The position numbers were made by a program, and so were the translations under genes. A stretch of DNA of 64,000 nt from Archaeoglobus veneficus SNP6 (lineage in GTDB: Archaea > Halobacteriota > Archaeoglobi > Archaeoglobales > Archaeoglobaceae): positions 1,348,612-1,412,611 of the forward strand of contig NC_015320.1 in the NCBI RefSeq assembly GCF_000194625.1, read 5' to 3'. The notes beneath the pieces were generated by a model. That model worked only from the letters and a program-made list of their open reading frames with translations. It was not told the origin of the DNA and made no database searches. Positions 968 through 11,088 of the stretch are shown here, piece after piece; positions within the stretch are counted from its first letter, which is position 1, and the number at the start of each line of letters is the position of its first letter.

Positions 968-3220
968 ATGAGCCAAACACAAAATAACGAGACAATATAT
1001 GAAGATTTCGGTAAGGTTAAAAGGACACCGCTAGTTAAAGCTTTGGAACCATTGAACCCACACCAAAATATTTGCGTTAAAGCACCAATCAGGGAAGGGA
1101 AAACCTTTGCTGTGTGTTATAAAATAAGCAAGACCAACCCGAAGGTGCTTTTCGTTGTTAGAACTCACGAGCAAGCGAAAGAAGTAATGAAGCGTTTAAC
1201 AGCTCTCGGTGTCTCCTGTGCTCATGTGGCTGGTGTTATGTGGAAGAACTTTAACTATAACTACACAGGAAATGCTATTAGCTGGACTCCTGCTGACCTC
1301 TGGAAACTTCTTAGCAAAAACAGACGCAAGGACATAGTGAAGTATACTACACAGATGATAAAGGACAACATGATCAATGCGGTTGTTACTGTTCCCGAGA
1401 TTGCTATTTGGTATGACCCTAAGATATTTGATCTGCTTGTGCTCGATGAAGAACAAACAGTTAGGTGGTTCAGACTACAAAGCTTGCTCGTGTTCAGTTA
1501 TGATAGAGATTTCGGCAAGTACACCGAGGATAGCCCACTTGAGCGTGCTTACAAGATGCTTGAAAGCCACAAGAACAAACACATTCAGGCTTGGTGCTCC
1601 TGGGCTAAGAAAGTGAATGAAGTAATTAAGTCTTATCGTCTCTATAAAGAACAATACAAAGCCATGAATGTGGATCAGCCAGAGAAGGAAGCATTAACCA
1701 GAATTAAAGCTGAGCTAAACGTGAAATATCTGCCCCATAAGTACTTTAATAACTATCATCCTGATCCAGAGAAGATCATAAGAATCATCGAATATTTCAA
1801 GAAGAAAGGGAAGCTAAACGATGACATGTATGAAGCATACAACATGCTTGCCAACACTCTCGCCACTATCTTCTTTGAAGTACTCTTCGTTAAGAGTGGA
1901 GCAAGAGTATGGAGCAAGATTGACACTGATCATGTGCTGTTTAAGGACTGGTTAAGCTGTTTTAAAGTCATCTGGCTCGTGCTTAACAGGACAAGCAAAG
2001 CGGACGAATGGCTATTCGGTAAGCTAAACAGAAATTACAAATTAATAAGCAAGGATAACTTCCGTTTCGAGCCATGGTTCATCAATGTCATAACCAGTGA
2101 ACCATTTGAGATAGCTAAATTTCTGTATGCTCATGGTGTCCCTTCTGCTTGGGTTACTGGACGTAAGAAAGACGCACGAAAACTTAAGGATGAGCTAAGA
2201 AAACACGGAGTTGCTGGTGTTATTGCAGAGGAACACACCAAAGAGGAGATTGAGAAGCTGTTGCTCGATGGTTATCAGATCATCCTTTACTTAAACAGCA
2301 GGGTGAGTAAGGGTATCGATCTTCCAATGATTAATGTTGTCTTTGTTTATAACTATACTTTCGCCGTACCTGATGGAGACGCAATGAAAGCAATGAGAGA
2401 CGAGCTTGAACAGGTTATCTTAAGGTGTTCTCCAATTGATGAAGATGATCCACTACCTCGTCTCATCGTGTGGTGTCATAAGAACGAGAGAAGCAAGCAG
2501 GAACAGGAATTTGTACTGAACGAGCTGCGTGGTAATCTCGACAGTAATACCAAAGAAATCATACTTAAGTCCAACTTCTTGCCACTTACAAACATCAGAA
2601 CGATGCCCACGAAAATAACAGCTCGAAAGATTAAGAAAAAATCGCCCTTTTTCGTTTCCGTTGAAAACGAGACTGAGACACGTTCATGGTCTGAAATAGT
2701 ACAGGGGCTTCGTAATCAAGATAGTGAATGTCTAATAACTAAGAATTTGGAGGTTCTGAAATTGACTAAGAACGCCTCATTACTGTGGCTCACATTGCTT
2801 AAGTATACAAATGATGAAAAAGAAAAAGGGGAATTTTTTGGCATTGATTCGAGTGCTCTCGATCAGTTCTGGGAGAAAACAAAGGGCAAGACACTAACAC
2901 CAACTGATGTCGATCGGTGGTTCAGAACTGTGGGTATTAGGCGGAATGTGGTAAAGTCTTTGCTTCTAAATCTCATGGTTCGTGCTGGTCTACTGAGAAA
3001 GGAAAGAGAAGGAAGGAAAGTAAAATACGAATTTGTAGATGTCCTACCTGATCCGCCAGAGACTGACGAAACTGTAGAGGTTAAGGATATAAGAATAATT
3101 GAGAAGCATGATCCAATCACTGGTATTGTTAAAATGCTGGCCGTTAGTGATGCCGAACGTAGAAATGATAGTAATAGTGGCTTTATAGTTGATGGATTTG
3201 ACTTAAGCCCTGAAGGGTAA
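968..3220 (+). CDS. XPD/DinG-like superfamily 2 helicase-type ATPase with C-terminal winged helix
   Basis: 750 residues. Visible motifs in order: Walker A-like APIREGKTF (39-47); an Ia-like VVRTHEQAKE (63-72), resembling the TRTHxQ segment of XPD/DinG helicases; a motif II-like LLVLDEEQTV (156-165), reading DEEQ rather than DEAH; a motif V-like SRVSKGIDLP (444-453); and a degenerate motif VI-like EQVILRCSP (481-489). The C-terminal ~100 residues (about 640-715) look like a winged-helix domain. The usual four-Cys FeS pattern of XPD is not evident. Expected role: DNA unwinding or replication initiation for the element. It stands between the RHH gene and a small orphan gene. I do not recognise a close named relative; the family assignment is by motif only. 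Confidence 0.6.
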   Translation: MSQTQNNETIYEDFGKVKRTPLVKALEPLNPHQNICVKAPIREGKTFAVCYKISKTNPKVLFVVRTHEQAKEVMKRLTALGVSCAHVAGVMWKNFNYNYTGNAISWTPADLWKLLSKNRRKDIVKYTTQMIKDNMINAVVTVPEIAIWYDPKIFDLLVLDEEQTVRWFRLQSLLVFSYDRDFGKYTEDSPLERAYKMLESHKNKHIQAWCSWAKKVNEVIKSYRLYKEQYKAMNVDQPEKEALTRIKAELNVKYLPHKYFNNYHPDPEKIIRIIEYFKKKGKLNDDMYEAYNMLANTLATIFFEVLFVKSGARVWSKIDTDHVLFKDWLSCFKVIWLVLNRTSKADEWLFGKLNRNYKLISKDNFRFEPWFINVITSEPFEIAKFLYAHGVPSAWVTGRKKDARKLKDELRKHGVAGVIAEEHTKEEIEKLLLDGYQIILYLNSRVSKGIDLPMINVVFVYNYTFAVPDGDAMKAMRDELEQVILRCSPIDEDDPLPRLIVWCHKNERSKQEQEFVLNELRGNLDSNTKEIILKSNFLPLTNIRTMPTKITARKIKKKSPFFVSVENETETRSWSEIVQGLRNQDSECLITKNLEVLKLTKNASLLWLTLLKYTNDEKEKGEFFGIDSSALDQFWEKTKGKTLTPTDVDRWFRTVGIRRNVVKSLLLNLMVRAGLLRKEREGRKVKYEFVDVLPDPPETDETVEVKDIRIIEKHDPITGIVKMLAVSDAERRNDSNSGFIVDGFDLSPEG

Positions 3221-4452: not shown

Positions 4453-5724
4453 TTAAGCTAACTTAACCTTAGCTTTTCCTCCACTGTAGTGTTCTATCTC
4501 ACTTATCTTTATCACTCTCTCCGGCTGTTTAACAAGTCCAGCTACTCTGTCAATAAGCTCCTGTGCTTCCACCTTATTATCGCCTATATCTAAAACGCTC
4601 GTCATCAAAATCTCCACGAGTCTTCTCAATTCGTTTACTTCATTCTGCAACTCTGCTATGTCCTCTCTGTATGCTTTAAGCTTCTCCTCTACTCTCTTCT
4701 CAACAGGATGCATCGAGCTTATGCTTAGCTGTGGTTCAACCTCGGCATACATCTGCCTAACCTTCTCGGGTGGTGGAATAAGGTATGCTCCATTGTAGGG
4801 AATTCTATGTCCCTGCATGAAGTCAACCAATAGGGGATCGAAGCCATTTAGTCTTAGTATAGTAGAGAATGCTGCTCTCAATGCGTGTGGACGGCAGGGA
4901 TTTAAGTCGGCGTTCTCCAAGTCTTCTTCACTGATCAACCCTGCCTTCAGTGCTGTCTCTCTAAGCATATTCTGTATCAGGTTTGGTGTTATGCGTTCGT
5001 GCTTAAGTTTCTTAGCTCCTTCCTTGGCAAACAAAGGGGAATTAAGCCTCAATTCCTCCCCTTTTCTCTTTCTGTCATTTAGATAAGCTTTCAAAGCCTC
5101 AACAGCATCATAACCAACGAAAGTAAAGTACTCCACCTCGTCCTTCTCTCTGACGACCTCTATCAACAACGGTACTTCTCCTCTTTCCAGTCCCCTTTTA
5201 ACATCTCCGTAGTTAAGGCTGCATATCGTTGATGCATCGAAACCACCTTGGAACATAAACAAGATTATTGCTCTATCCCTTAGCGTTGGTGCATGGTCAA
5301 CTAACAGTTTTACTTCTCTCGGTGTAAGCATCATTTTTCGGTTCTCTTTCTTGGGTGCTGCCTTTGGTGTTTTGGTCATTATTGGAAAGCCGTTGCGTCT
5401 GTAGAATGATCTAATAGCTCCAACATATGTAGTTGCCATCATCTTACTTATGCCCTTCTTTCCCGATGGTTTTCTGTCCTTCCCTCTTGTCTTTACCTCG
5501 TATTCTGTTAAAAGCCACTTGTGGAACTCGGCCAATCTCTCTTCGGGTTTACCTTGCAGCCTTCTTGGCTTTCTTCTGTCCTCTTCTGCCTCATCAATCA
5601 GTTCCTTGGGGTTCAACCCCGTAAATTCTATGTATGCCTTCATTGCGGAAAGATAGGTTGCCTTGCTGCTATCTTTAACTTGTGTAATCCATTTCTTTAT
5701 TTCATCATATTCCTCTAAATGCAT
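4453..5724 (-). CDS. Tyrosine recombinase / integrase, archaeal type
   Basis: 423 residues from the ATG at 5724. The N-terminal SAM-like core-binding domain covers about 1-125, the catalytic domain about 130-335, and a predicted coiled coil with a basic tail follows (about 340-423). Catalytic box II is clear: HALR (H280, R283), QGH (H306) and the nucleophile in GAY (Y314). In box I, where most family members have TGLR, this protein reads GGFD (D163). The ATG at 5724 is chosen over one 27 codons upstream because a TATA-like TATAAATATTA lies 21-31 bases before it. It would integrate or excise the element at 1-5.8 kb. A neighbouring tRNA target is not seen. Confidence 0.85.
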   Translation of the reverse strand: MHLEEYDEIKKWITQVKDSSKATYLSAMKAYIEFTGLNPKELIDEAEEDRRKPRRLQGKPEERLAEFHKWLLTEYEVKTRGKDRKPSGKKGISKMMATTYVGAIRSFYRRNGFPIMTKTPKAAPKKENRKMMLTPREVKLLVDHAPTLRDRAIILFMFQGGFDASTICSLNYGDVKRGLERGEVPLLIEVVREKDEVEYFTFVGYDAVEALKAYLNDRKRKGEELRLNSPLFAKEGAKKLKHERITPNLIQNMLRETALKAGLISEEDLENADLNPCRPHALRAAFSTILRLNGFDPLLVDFMQGHRIPYNGAYLIPPPEKVRQMYAEVEPQLSISSMHPVEKRVEEKLKAYREDIAELQNEVNELRRLVEILMTSVLDIGDNKVEAQELIDRVAGLVKQPERVIKISEIEHYSGGKAKVKLA

Positions 5725-5841
5725 AATTAAAGTTTTAAATCCTTTAATATTTATACTTAACTGTAGATATAAGAAAAAAGATTTTTGATTACAATTTCTG
5801 GGCATGTTTTGTCCTAAAGCTTAATTCGTCGTTCGTCGAGC

Positions 5842-6258
5842 TTAAGGTTCAAGATTTTCTAAGACTTTCTTGGCGGCCTGGGAAACGATTTTCGAATTGT
5901 GTTCAGCAAGTCTTGAAAGTAATTCTATGGCTCTCCGAGAACGTATGATGGCGAGTGAATCAACTATCGCCATCAGGATAAACACATCTTCGGTATCAGC
6001 CATTTTCTCAAAATGAGGCAACACCTTCTCAGACTTCATATGCCCGAGCAGTCTGATAGTATTCATACGAACTTCCCTGACAGGATGGCCAAGAGAAATA
6101 ATAAGCCTGTCCTCGTATGGCAGCTTCTTGTATTCAGTGATATCATATCCACAGACAGGACACTTTCTAAAATCCTCTTTGAACTCGCTCCAGCATTTCG
6201 GGCAGAAGTACGTTGTCACAGATTTCACCCTACAGCAGCAATAAGATGAGAGTCTCAC
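5842..6258 (-). CDS. Zinc-ribbon plus HEAT-repeat protein
   Basis: 138 residues from a GTG at 6258. A zinc ribbon at about 18-40 has two CxxC pairs (FCPKCWSEF and KCPVCGYD). It is followed by two or three HEAT/Armadillo-like helical repeats (HPVREVRMNTIRLLG, ADTEDVFILMAIVDSLA, HNSKIVSQAAKKVLENL). Such proteins are usually scaffolds for protein interactions. The start overlaps the stop of the upstream prenyltransferase-like gene (GTGA), so the two are co-translated and lie behind the same fluoride riboswitch. In-frame GTG codons at residues 11 and 14 are alternative starts. Function is unknown; a link with fluoride stress is inferred only from the shared leader. Confidence 0.7.
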   Translation of the reverse strand: MRLSSYCCCRVKSVTTYFCPKCWSEFKEDFRKCPVCGYDITEYKKLPYEDRLIISLGHPVREVRMNTIRLLGHMKSEKVLPHFEKMADTEDVFILMAIVDSLAIIRSRRAIELLSRLAEHNSKIVSQAAKKVLENLEP

Positions 6259-7130
6259 TCCCGCAGGTTTCCGATAGATTCCTCAGGAAGTACCAGACTC
6301 GCGACTGCATAGTACGTGTACTCAAGGCTCGAAATACCCCCATGAATGCTCCTTCTAAAGCCGCCGTCCGGATTCTGGAGAGCCGAGATATACCTTGCTG
6401 TTTTCTCACTCGCGTAGTCATAGCCGAGCACACAAAAACACGACACTGCATAGTACGTGTCTTCGAGGTATGGCGGGTAGCCGTTCGGAACCTTCGTGAA
6501 GCCACCACCCTGACACTCATGTTCCCTGACGAAGGAAACAACACTGTTAGCCCTCTCAATCACATTGCCGAGAACGGAAACACAGTAGTACGTTTCCTGA
6601 AGGTTTGGCGATGCTATCCCGAATCCACCGTTTTTCCGGAACTTCATGATGAAGTCCTTCACCTCATCCGGAATCTCCTTTCCAAGTAACCTTAGAGAGC
6701 TTGTAAGGATATATACGCCCTTCAGAACGTTTGGCATGTCAAAAGAGTACGTTGCCGTAGTTCCAATTTCTGAGCCGAATTCCCTCGGTACGACTTTTGT
6801 GATCTTCTCAAGTCTGTTAAACAGAAGGTCACTCACGTCCAGCAGTTTTTCGCTGAGAAGGTTTAGTGAATTTAGAGTGTAAAATATCGAGTAGGGTTCT
6901 GTCCTGATGCTGTTTCTCAGAAATTCAACGAGTTTTTCTTTATCGGGCACCTCATCCCCAATCGAAGTAAGTATATATACTGCGTAGAAAGTCTCTGGAA
7001 GAGTGGATGGCAGCTGTTTGCAGAACGTAAATCCACCGTCGTCGTTCCTTCTACTTAGCACAAACTCTCTGAGCCTTTCGACGTTGATAATATCACAGAT
7101 ACGGGAGTTGTACACTGCCCGCGGGAACAA
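6255..7130 (-). CDS. Prenyltransferase-beta / terpene-cyclase-type alpha-alpha barrel repeat protein, fluoride-riboswitch controlled
   Basis: About 291 residues built of repeats with the signature DGGF/GGF and TYYAV (for example NDDGGFTF, NGGFGIAS, GGGFTKVP, PDGGFRRS; each followed by an ETFYAVYIL- or DTYYAVSCF-like helix). This is the alpha-alpha toroid shared by protein prenyltransferase beta subunits and squalene-hopene cyclases. The DXDD motif of hopene cyclases and the Zn ligands of prenyltransferases are not obvious, so enzyme activity is uncertain. The longest open frame would begin inside the riboswitch (ATG at 7157). I prefer TTG at 7130, four bases after a strong GGGGGTGG Shine-Dalgarno (7135-7142); GTG at 7115 is another option. 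First gene of a two-gene unit. Confidence 0.75.
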   Translation of the reverse strand: MFPRAVYNSRICDIINVERLREFVLSRRNDDGGFTFCKQLPSTLPETFYAVYILTSIGDEVPDKEKLVEFLRNSIRTEPYSIFYTLNSLNLLSEKLLDVSDLLFNRLEKITKVVPREFGSEIGTTATYSFDMPNVLKGVYILTSSLRLLGKEIPDEVKDFIMKFRKNGGFGIASPNLQETYYCVSVLGNVIERANSVVSFVREHECQGGGFTKVPNGYPPYLEDTYYAVSCFCVLGYDYASEKTARYISALQNPDGGFRRSIHGGISSLEYTYYAVASLVLPEESIGNLRE

Positions 7131-7134
7131 CGAA

Positions 7135-7142
7135 CCACCCCC
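7135..7142 (-). promoter_or_regulatory. Shine-Dalgarno sequence likely sequestered by the riboswitch
   Basis: On the minus strand this is GGGGGTGG, four bases before the TTG at 7130. Its GGGTGG part is the exact complement of CCACCC (7184 to 7179), the 3' side of aptamer stem P1. Pairing of the two would exclude P1, giving a translational ON switch with fluoride. Confidence 0.6.
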
Positions 7143-7149
7143 GAAAACA

Positions 7150-7196
7150 GGCGTCATCAGCCCTTGCCGGGCGGTTAAGGGTGGACGCCATCACCC
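7150..7196 (-). promoter_or_regulatory. Fluoride riboswitch (crcB RNA motif)
   Basis: Read on the minus strand, the sequence begins GGGTGATGGCGTCCACCC (7196 to 7179) and matches the fluoride aptamer. P1 pairs GGGTG with CACCC. The internal GATGG loop and the TTAACC linker (usually AAACU-like) are present. P2 pairs GCCC with GGGC around GGCAA. The conserved GCTGATGACGCC end follows. The pseudoknot pairs GGCGTC with GACGCC, six perfect pairs. Layout and length match the known Thermotoga aptamer closely. It lies 20 bases before the start of the prenyltransferase-like gene, not before crcB, which points the other way. Confidence 0.95.
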
Positions 7197-7242
7197 GCAT
7201 ACAGTAATCTCTATGTACTACGTTGAATGTAATTTCTGCTTC

Positions 7243-7251: not shown

Positions 7252-7326
7252 GGTTTCCTCAAACAATTCAGCTTTAAAGCCCACCATGGGGAAATGTATT
7301 AAAATCGGCAATGGTATGGCGCTGTA

Positions 7327-7707
7327 ATGTACACTTGGCTTGCAGTTGGTCTTGGTGGATTTGCCGGAGCAATTTTGAGATACTACATAAGTGGATGGAT
7401 GCAGAGCAGAACCTCCCTATTTCCCCTCGGTACCCTTTCAGTGAACTTCACTGGCTGTGTTCTTATTGGGCTGATAATGTATCTCTCCGAATACTGGGGG
7501 TTCTTCGACAGCGAGACGAGACTTTTCCTGACAATAGGTGTTCTCGGCTCATTCACGACAATGTCAACCTTCAGCTTTGAGACGTTCAAGATGCTGGAGA
7601 GTGGGGAATTCCTCCTGGCGCTTCTTTACACTTTCGGGACAATCAGTCTGTGTTTGCTCGGAGTGTATGTGGGCAAGCTTATTGCACTGAGTATATGGAG
7701 AACGTAA
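7327..7707 (+). CDS. crcB: Fluoride ion channel Fluc/CrcB
   Basis: 126 residues with four hydrophobic segments (about 1-18, 33-56, 64-86, 95-120), the normal size for a dual-topology Fluc monomer. The N-terminal VGLGGFAGAILRYYIS matches the family's GGxxGAxxRY, and GTLSVNFTGCVLIG contains the conserved GTLxxNxxG with the pore Asn. GVLGSFTTMSTFSFE carries the GxxGGfTTFSTF-type polar/phenylalanine track. It exports F- passively. TATTAAAAT (7297-7305) lies about 25 bases before the ATG, so the mRNA appears leaderless and without its own aptamer. Followed after 12 bases by a DUF190 gene. Confidence 0.92.
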   Translation: MYTWLAVGLGGFAGAILRYYISGWMQSRTSLFPLGTLSVNFTGCVLIGLIMYLSEYWGFFDSETRLFLTIGVLGSFTTMSTFSFETFKMLESGEFLLALLYTFGTISLCLLGVYVGKLIALSIWRT

Positions 7708-7719
7708 AGGGTGTCCGAT

Positions 7720-8052
7720 ATGAACGGAGAAGATGCCATCCTCCTGCGAATATACATAGGTGAATCGGACAGATACGGTGGAAAACCCCTGTACAAGTAT
7801 CTGGTGGAGTTCTTCAAGGAGCAGGGTCTTGCTGGAGCAACTGTTTTCAGAGGCATCATAGGTTTCGGAAAAACGAGCATAATTCACACAACCTCGGTTC
7901 TCAGGCTATCAACAGACCTCCCTGTGGTTGTAGAGGTTGTAGACAGAAAGGACAAAATAGAAAAGATAAAACCAAAACTTGCTGAAATCGTGAAGGAGGG
8001 GTTGATTACCGAGGAGAGAGTCAAGGTAGTTTTCTACGAAGGAAACGAGTGA
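7720..8052 (+). CDS. DUF190 (UPF0166) PII-like protein linked to CrcB
   Basis: 110 residues from ATG 7720, with AGGGTG as Shine-Dalgarno six bases upstream (a GTG at 7711 would add three residues). The sequence AILLRIYIGESDRYGGKPLYKYLVEF and GATVFRGIIGFGK is diagnostic of DUF190, a small ferredoxin-like/PII-like fold commonly next to crcB. Its biochemical role is not established; a regulatory or sensing role for the channel is suggested by conserved linkage. Confidence 0.85.
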   Translation: MNGEDAILLRIYIGESDRYGGKPLYKYLVEFFKEQGLAGATVFRGIIGFGKTSIIHTTSVLRLSTDLPVVVEVVDRKDKIEKIKPKLAEIVKEGLITEERVKVVFYEGNE

Positions 8053-10393: not shown

Positions 10394-11088
10394 GGCAGTG
10401 TCAAAATAACAAAAAATAAATAACTAAGATACAACTTATGCAGCCTGCGCTAAGCCAGTTGGTAGATTACGTCAAGTCTACAAAAGTCTTTCGAAGGAAC
10501 AGGAAAGATGTGGAACTTAAAATACTTGCAGCATTATTATACTTCTTTGGCCTTTCTTTGAGAAAAACAAGTGATTTTCTATCTTTATTCGAAGAAATAA
10601 GTCACGAATCTGTTAGGATTTACTACCATAGACTCAAAACAGTCTTAAAACAACCAGAAAAGAAGAAAAGAAGACTTGTTGCGATAGATGAAACAAAAAT
10701 AAAACTGGAAAAGAAACAAATCTTTGTTTGGGCTGCTATAGACGTTGATACCATGGAATGCCTAGCTATATGGGCTTCTGGAGGAAGAGGAAGCTTTGAA
10801 GCTTACGTTTTCCTTAGAGAAGTTCTCAAGCATTGCGAAAACAAGCCAGAGATCGTTGTTGATAGAGGTTTCTGGTATCTGTGGGCTTTGAAAAGGTTAG
10901 GGCTGAGATACAGGCATGAAACGTTTGGTAGAAGAAATGCTGTAGAAGGATTCTTTTCGAGGTTTAAAGAGAGAACGAAGAGGTTCTGGAACAGATTTCC
11001 ATTCAGGAGTTCTTTTGTCTCTGTACAGAGCTGGTTGGAGAGCTTTATGGCCTTCTACAACTACTGGAGGTGTTAACTTGACACTACC
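10394..11088 (+). mobile_element. IS6-family insertion sequence, 695 bp, intact ends
   Basis: Imperfect 18-base terminal inverted repeats: GGCAGTGTCAAAATAACA (10394-10411) against the complement of 11071-11088, which reads GGTAGTGTCAAGTTAACA, 15 of 18 equal. The GGCAnTGT start resembles IS26/IS6 ends. The element is flanked by a perfect 9-base direct repeat, GATGTATGT (10385-10393 and 11089-11097), matching the roughly 8-base target duplication of IS6. Size is normal. The perfect duplication and uninterrupted transposase suggest a recent insertion into the Lrp/phosphoribosyltransferase intergenic space. Confidence 0.85.
10438..11076 (+). CDS. IS6-family DDE transposase
   Basis: 212 residues. 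N-terminal HTH region (about 22-60: KILAALLYFFGLSLRKTSDFL). DDE core: first Asp in RLVAIDETKIK (about 83), second in IVVDRGFWYLWAL (about 141), Glu in RRNAVEGFFSRFKERTKRFWN (about 166). The C-terminal SFMAFYNYWR is typical of the archaeal IS6 branch. Start ATG at 10438 lies 26 bases after the left inverted repeat. It looks complete and functional. It would catalyse replicative transposition of the surrounding element. Confidence 0.9.
   Translation: MQPALSQLVDYVKSTKVFRRNRKDVELKILAALLYFFGLSLRKTSDFLSLFEEISHESVRIYYHRLKTVLKQPEKKKRRLVAIDETKIKLEKKQIFVWAAIDVDTMECLAIWASGGRGSFEAYVFLREVLKHCENKPEIVVDRGFWYLWALKRLGLRYRHETFGRRNAVEGFFSRFKERTKRFWNRFPFRSSFVSVQSWLESFMAFYNYWRC

Follow-up and report, generated by a model that had tools for sequence, protein, structure and literature searches.

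The window, a stretch of 64,000 nucleotides of the Archaeoglobus veneficus SNP6 genome, carries on its minus strand a fluoride riboswitch aptamer within the 5' leader of a gene on that strand, which starts at 7130 and encodes an alpha-alpha toroid protein (Table 1). A cmscan search against Rfam matched this aptamer to RF01734 over the full model (1-64 of 64) with 54.1 bits and an E-value of 3.3e-12, far above the gathering cut-off of 34 bits. The sequence-only reading of this DNA was thus right to place a fluoride aptamer on the minus strand, although the extent that it gave, 7150-7196, holds for the core of the element and not for the full match. Our own covariance model R1 scored the element at 66.8 bits, but its training set included the window sequence itself. 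The aptamer is the only one of its class in the 1.9 Mb genome, and the scan of both strands of the window returned no Rfam family besides RF01734. Because this is the sole Rfam match, nothing lies on the side of the fluoride channel gene crcB, for which the same scan found no aptamer on the plus strand. As had been noted, crcB stands back-to-back with the toroid gene, running opposite to the aptamer and not downstream in its direction; it is the only copy in the genome and is plausibly leaderless, with a TATA-like TATTAAAA at about 7298-7305.

The toroid reading frame has its first ATG at 7157, inside the aptamer, and an open reading frame from there would span 6255-7157; the TTG at 7130, which is preceded by GGGGGTGG (7142-7135) and had been assumed earlier, is likely the true start as judged from the sequence. 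The product matches the Pfam Prenyltrans family PF00432 with an E-value of 1e-17, in agreement with the suggestion that a prenyltransferase/terpene-cyclase-type repeat protein follows the aptamer. The next gene begins with a GTG at 6258 that overlaps the toroid stop by 4 bases, and its product has the proposed HEAT repeats and a zinc-ribbon-like segment, for which the Pfam models stayed under their cut-off. Just downstream of it lies a tyrosine recombinase (Phage_integrase) gene at 4453-5805 (minus strand), with a 750 aa open reading frame beyond at 968-3220 (plus strand), and the two possibly mark the edge of an integrated element. On the far side of the locus, an open reading frame at 10438-11076 (plus strand) resembles by eye an IS6/IS26-type transposase and has an LrpA-like regulator gene on one side and an open reading frame of phosphoribosyltransferase type, by resemblance, on the other.

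Table 1. Features of the aptamer-toroid locus, in window coordinates.
Feature	Position	Strand	Evidence
Zinc-ribbon-like and HEAT-repeat protein, 138 aa	5842..6258	-	HEAT_2, E 1.8e-11; several relatives have it behind the toroid gene as well
Toroid protein (alpha-alpha) of 291 aa starting with TTG; homologous to the probable TK0513	6255..7130	-	PF00432, AlphaFold, Foldseek
Probable Shine-Dalgarno, GGGGGUGG	7135..7142	-	Sequence, MFE fold, inference
Fluoride riboswitch aptamer (RF01734)	7141..7204	-	cmscan; own model R1
P1 3' strand CACCC, complementary to the Shine-Dalgarno	7179..7183	-	RNAalifold consensus, sequence, MFE fold
P1 5' strand GGGUG	7192..7196	-	RNAalifold consensus, 32 archaeal aptamers
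CrcB/Fluc fluoride channel, divergent	7327..7707	+	PF02537, E 7.3e-29
DUF190 (COG1993) protein adjoining crcB	7711..8052	+	PF02641, E 2.8e-40

The pairing of this aptamer with a toroid gene recurs over many archaeal lineages, often with crcB in company, so the sequence-only reading withstood the second of the two tests that it had set itself, as it had withstood the first with the covariance-model score. Toroid homologues were found in 39 of 99 relatives, in many of them with an aptamer directly ahead. The 393 genomes drawn from the organism's own phylum contained 46 clear members of the family; for 24 of these an aptamer lies on the same strand at most 250 nt upstream and for a further 8 within 2 kb, where random placement would be expected to yield such adjacency at about 6e-5 per genome. 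The Thermococcaceae are the most uniform, with the toroid gene in 89 of 94 genomes and the aptamer in 88; it ends 37-74 nt upstream of the match for 88 of the 89 toroid genes, no genome of the family has an aptamer without a toroid gene, and all five genomes that lack the gene lack the aptamer. A GTDB species set gave 80 loci with relatives, six of them without upstream sequence, and in the 74 assessable loci a covariance model that we built on 32 archaeal aptamers placed an aptamer next to the toroid gene 47 times, with 5 further loci having one at a distance of about one gene. The remaining 22 loci, mostly from Archaeoglobaceae and including gene fragments, gave no aptamer. Archaeoglobi, Thermococci, Bathyarchaeota, Brockarchaeota, Micrarchaeota, Thaumarchaeota, Methanoperedens and several methanogen families all show the pairing; as these lineages share ancestry, the recurrences are not independent events. 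In several Archaeoglobaceae genera the toroid gene has no aptamer; some of these genera have only the HEAT gene beside it and not crcB, and toroid genes of this kind often still head a crcB-DUF190 operon. A search for diverged aptamers ahead of them found none in most cases even at E-values up to 10, with an 18-bit remnant-like match ahead of the toroid gene in one locus (L078).

Downstream of the pair, the gene content differs from genome to genome. A codirectional crcB and DUF190 follow in 25 of the 80 GTDB loci, HEAT/zinc-ribbon genes come next in several relatives as in the window, Thermococci commonly have a DUF6062 gene near the toroid gene, and enolase, a classic fluoride target, adjoins it in three genomes (G001, G075, G271). 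One genome (G096) has the order aptamer, toroid, HEAT, a gene of unknown function, crcB, crcB, DUF190. The aptamer and the toroid gene stay together while these neighbours change, so the two of them form the conserved unit. The earlier statement that the toroid gene and not crcB is under the aptamer is accurate for the window, but some close relatives (among them G014 and G025) have aptamer, toroid, crcB and DUF190 in one direction.

Other genes were also seen behind fluoride aptamers in these genomes. A genome of the same phylum (G373) has a cluster of seven aptamers, one of which (L289:11807-11870, minus strand) precedes a glutamine synthetase gene (L289:10371-11699) by about 108 nt, and another genome (G297) has eight aptamers in 18 kb, among them one (L290:14989-15053, minus strand) that precedes a thermosome (Cpn60/TCP-1) gene (L290:13288-14949) by 40 nt. 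Dynamin-like GTPase genes stand directly behind aptamers in several archaeal families (L093:6358-8211, L096:8667-10463, L100:3914-5773, L289:893-2689, L294:3470-5251). A second aptamer, present in 15 Thermococcaceae genomes, heads a NuoH-like operon, of the formate hydrogenlyase or hydrogenase type, in the five examined (L282:3418-3481 and L283-L286), and some Archaeoglobaceae aptamers (L063:6000-6062) head operons of the same kind. Genes for MFS transporters (L289:5021-6220, L096:11000-12211) and for an MFS-like protein (L290:11765-12970) follow aptamers in genomes without crcB or CLC, and are candidates for unrecognised fluoride exporters.

One instance of the pairing has been remarked on before. 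The genome that we take to be that of Thermococcus kodakarensis KOD1 (G420) holds aptamer, toroid gene (440585-441451), CrcB and DUF190 in exactly that order. A 2014 transcriptome of T. kodakarensis found that the aptamer RNA is transcribed and lies 'surprisingly' upstream of TK0513, not of the crcB gene TK0514, and remarked on the position of the riboswitch alone (PMC4247193). Since the gene order matches exactly, TK0513 is very probably a member of the toroid family. The two loci share the aptamer just upstream of this gene and differ in that crcB-DUF190 lies downstream and codirectional in T. kodakarensis, whereas crcB is divergent in the window. The earlier suggestion that a fluoride-controlled toroid protein would be unfamiliar therefore holds for the family, of which we found no description in the literature, but not for the TK0513 instance. 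Like other members of the RF01734/crcB motif, the window aptamer is a full match above the gathering score and lies 5' of a coding gene; the targets named in the reviews and the original fluoride motif paper that we consulted are exporters, Na+/H+ antiporters, enolase, pyrophosphatase, formate hydrogen lyase and mutS, and the toroid protein is not among them. The aptamer is thus a known kind of RNA and the novelty sits in the effector family, a finding that is broader than the window locus.

How the toroid gene relates to fluoride export can be addressed from the distribution of exporter genes. The order aptamer, toroid, crcB, DUF190 seen in some relatives might mean that the riboswitch serves the exporter and that the toroid gene, lying between the promoter and crcB, is carried along as a passenger. 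However, it is crcB that varies and the toroid gene that stays with the aptamer, TK0514 is served by a separate start site that lies downstream of TK0513 (PMC4247193), and crcB is on the opposite strand in the window; together with the counts from Thermococcaceae and the phylum and the existence of genomes without crcB, this largely refutes the passenger reading, and we reject it. The common operon could alternatively reflect a toroid protein that is an accessory of the CrcB/DUF190 channel, acting in its assembly or regulation, for which the 25 codirectional loci speak. The divergent crcB of the window argues against this, as do the many genomes that keep the aptamer-toroid unit with no crcB found, including the complete genomes G033 and G075. 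Eight such genomes, of 26 tested for CLC, lack CLC as well (G075, G133, G153, G286, G290, G297, G373 and G381), while the presence of CLC in other genomes does not show that it is of the fluoride type. Because aptamer-toroid genomes without crcB or CLC exist, a role solely as a channel helper is unlikely. These genomes raise the further idea that the toroid family is a dedicated, export-free intracellular fluoride-tolerance factor and a principal defence in archaea that have neither of the known exporter families, which we regard as tentative and would sooner doubt than assume.

A different role could be read from the fold. The AlphaFold model, a confident one (pLDDT 88.6), Foldseek and Pfam all support an alpha-alpha toroid, whose closest folds are the beta subunits of RabGGTase and GGTase III, with TM-scores to RabGGTase beta of up to about 0.6-0.7; NCBIfam offered no named family for the window protein. 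All 50 family members aligned match PF00432 and some match squalene-cyclase models weakly, archaeal lipids are isoprenoid, and HF enters cells by diffusion, all of which would suit an enzyme that modifies isoprenoids or lipids, such as a prenyltransferase or terpene cyclase of divergent type, and that changes the isoprenoid membrane so as to lower HF entry. Yet the window family, at about 290 aa, lacks the conserved zinc-ligand triad of the RabGGTase and FTase beta subunits with which it shares the toroid: no strongly conserved Cys/His triad was found among the 50 members, as judged from the sequence alignment and not from superposed coordinates, and the DVCY zinc motif of RabGGTase beta aligns in HMMER to toroid residues without Asp or Cys. 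Likewise, the family has toroid repeats in common with squalene-hopene and other class II terpene cyclases, but consists of one small domain alone and has the DxDD motif in 0 of 50 aligned members. Lipid genes are also not among the neighbours. Catalysis of either kind is therefore unlikely, and so is a membrane-modifying role. Most members have Cys or His at position 204, and the polar residues that are near-invariant are Q252, N253, R260, E223, S267, T47 and T180, with E205 at 89%.

As for how the aptamer may control the gene, the minimum free energy fold of the leader pairs the Shine-Dalgarno GGGGGUGG with CCACCCUU (7184-7177), the segment in which the 3' strand of P1 lies. When P1 and P3 are enforced the fold is weaker by 10.5 kcal/mol, a value that includes no pseudoknot or ligand terms. 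We prefer a translational ON switch, in which at low fluoride the P1 3' strand (CCACCC) would pair with the Shine-Dalgarno and hide the start region, and binding of fluoride and Mg would lock P1 and the pseudoknot, free the ribosome site and allow the toroid and HEAT proteins to be made. Against this model, the bound-like constrained fold likewise buries the Shine-Dalgarno in silico, in a downstream hairpin, and the complementarity may be fortuitous since the P1 3' strand resembles an anti-Shine-Dalgarno anyway. For the latter reason, and because two loci (L142 and L146) break the pattern, we dropped the apparent covariation of Shine-Dalgarno and P1 (GGTGG:CCACC in Archaeoglobi, GGCGG:CCGCC in Thermococci) as proof of such a switch. 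Control by transcription attenuation, the usual mode of bacterial fluoride riboswitches (PMC2864571), seems rather unlikely here: the gap of about 11 nt (by eye) between aptamer and start leaves little room for a terminator, and a hyperthermophilic archaeal fluoride riboswitch has been cited as translational (PMC11077080).

The observations proper are that the aptamer is present, where it lies, and that across many lineages it keeps turning up next to a single protein subfamily while the downstream genes change. We consider it probable, at roughly 0.7, that the element truly functions as a fluoride riboswitch, that such riboswitches chiefly serve the toroid gene across much of the archaeal domain, and that the protein is an intracellular effector of the fluoride stress response. 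It would act inside the cell alongside the exporter and not through it, perhaps as a ligand- or protein-binding ring that protects or replaces a fluoride-sensitive function, and not as a zinc prenyltransferase. Tools for gene deletion exist in T. kodakarensis. To our knowledge, fluoride resistance has been described almost wholly in terms of exporters and the replacement of inhibited enzymes. Among the partners of the fluoride riboswitch found here over many archaeal lineages the toroid family is the most constant, and its occurrence where no known exporter gene was found indicates that fluoride defence has a further layer; very probably, the protein contributes to fluoride survival in archaea in a way that has been overlooked.
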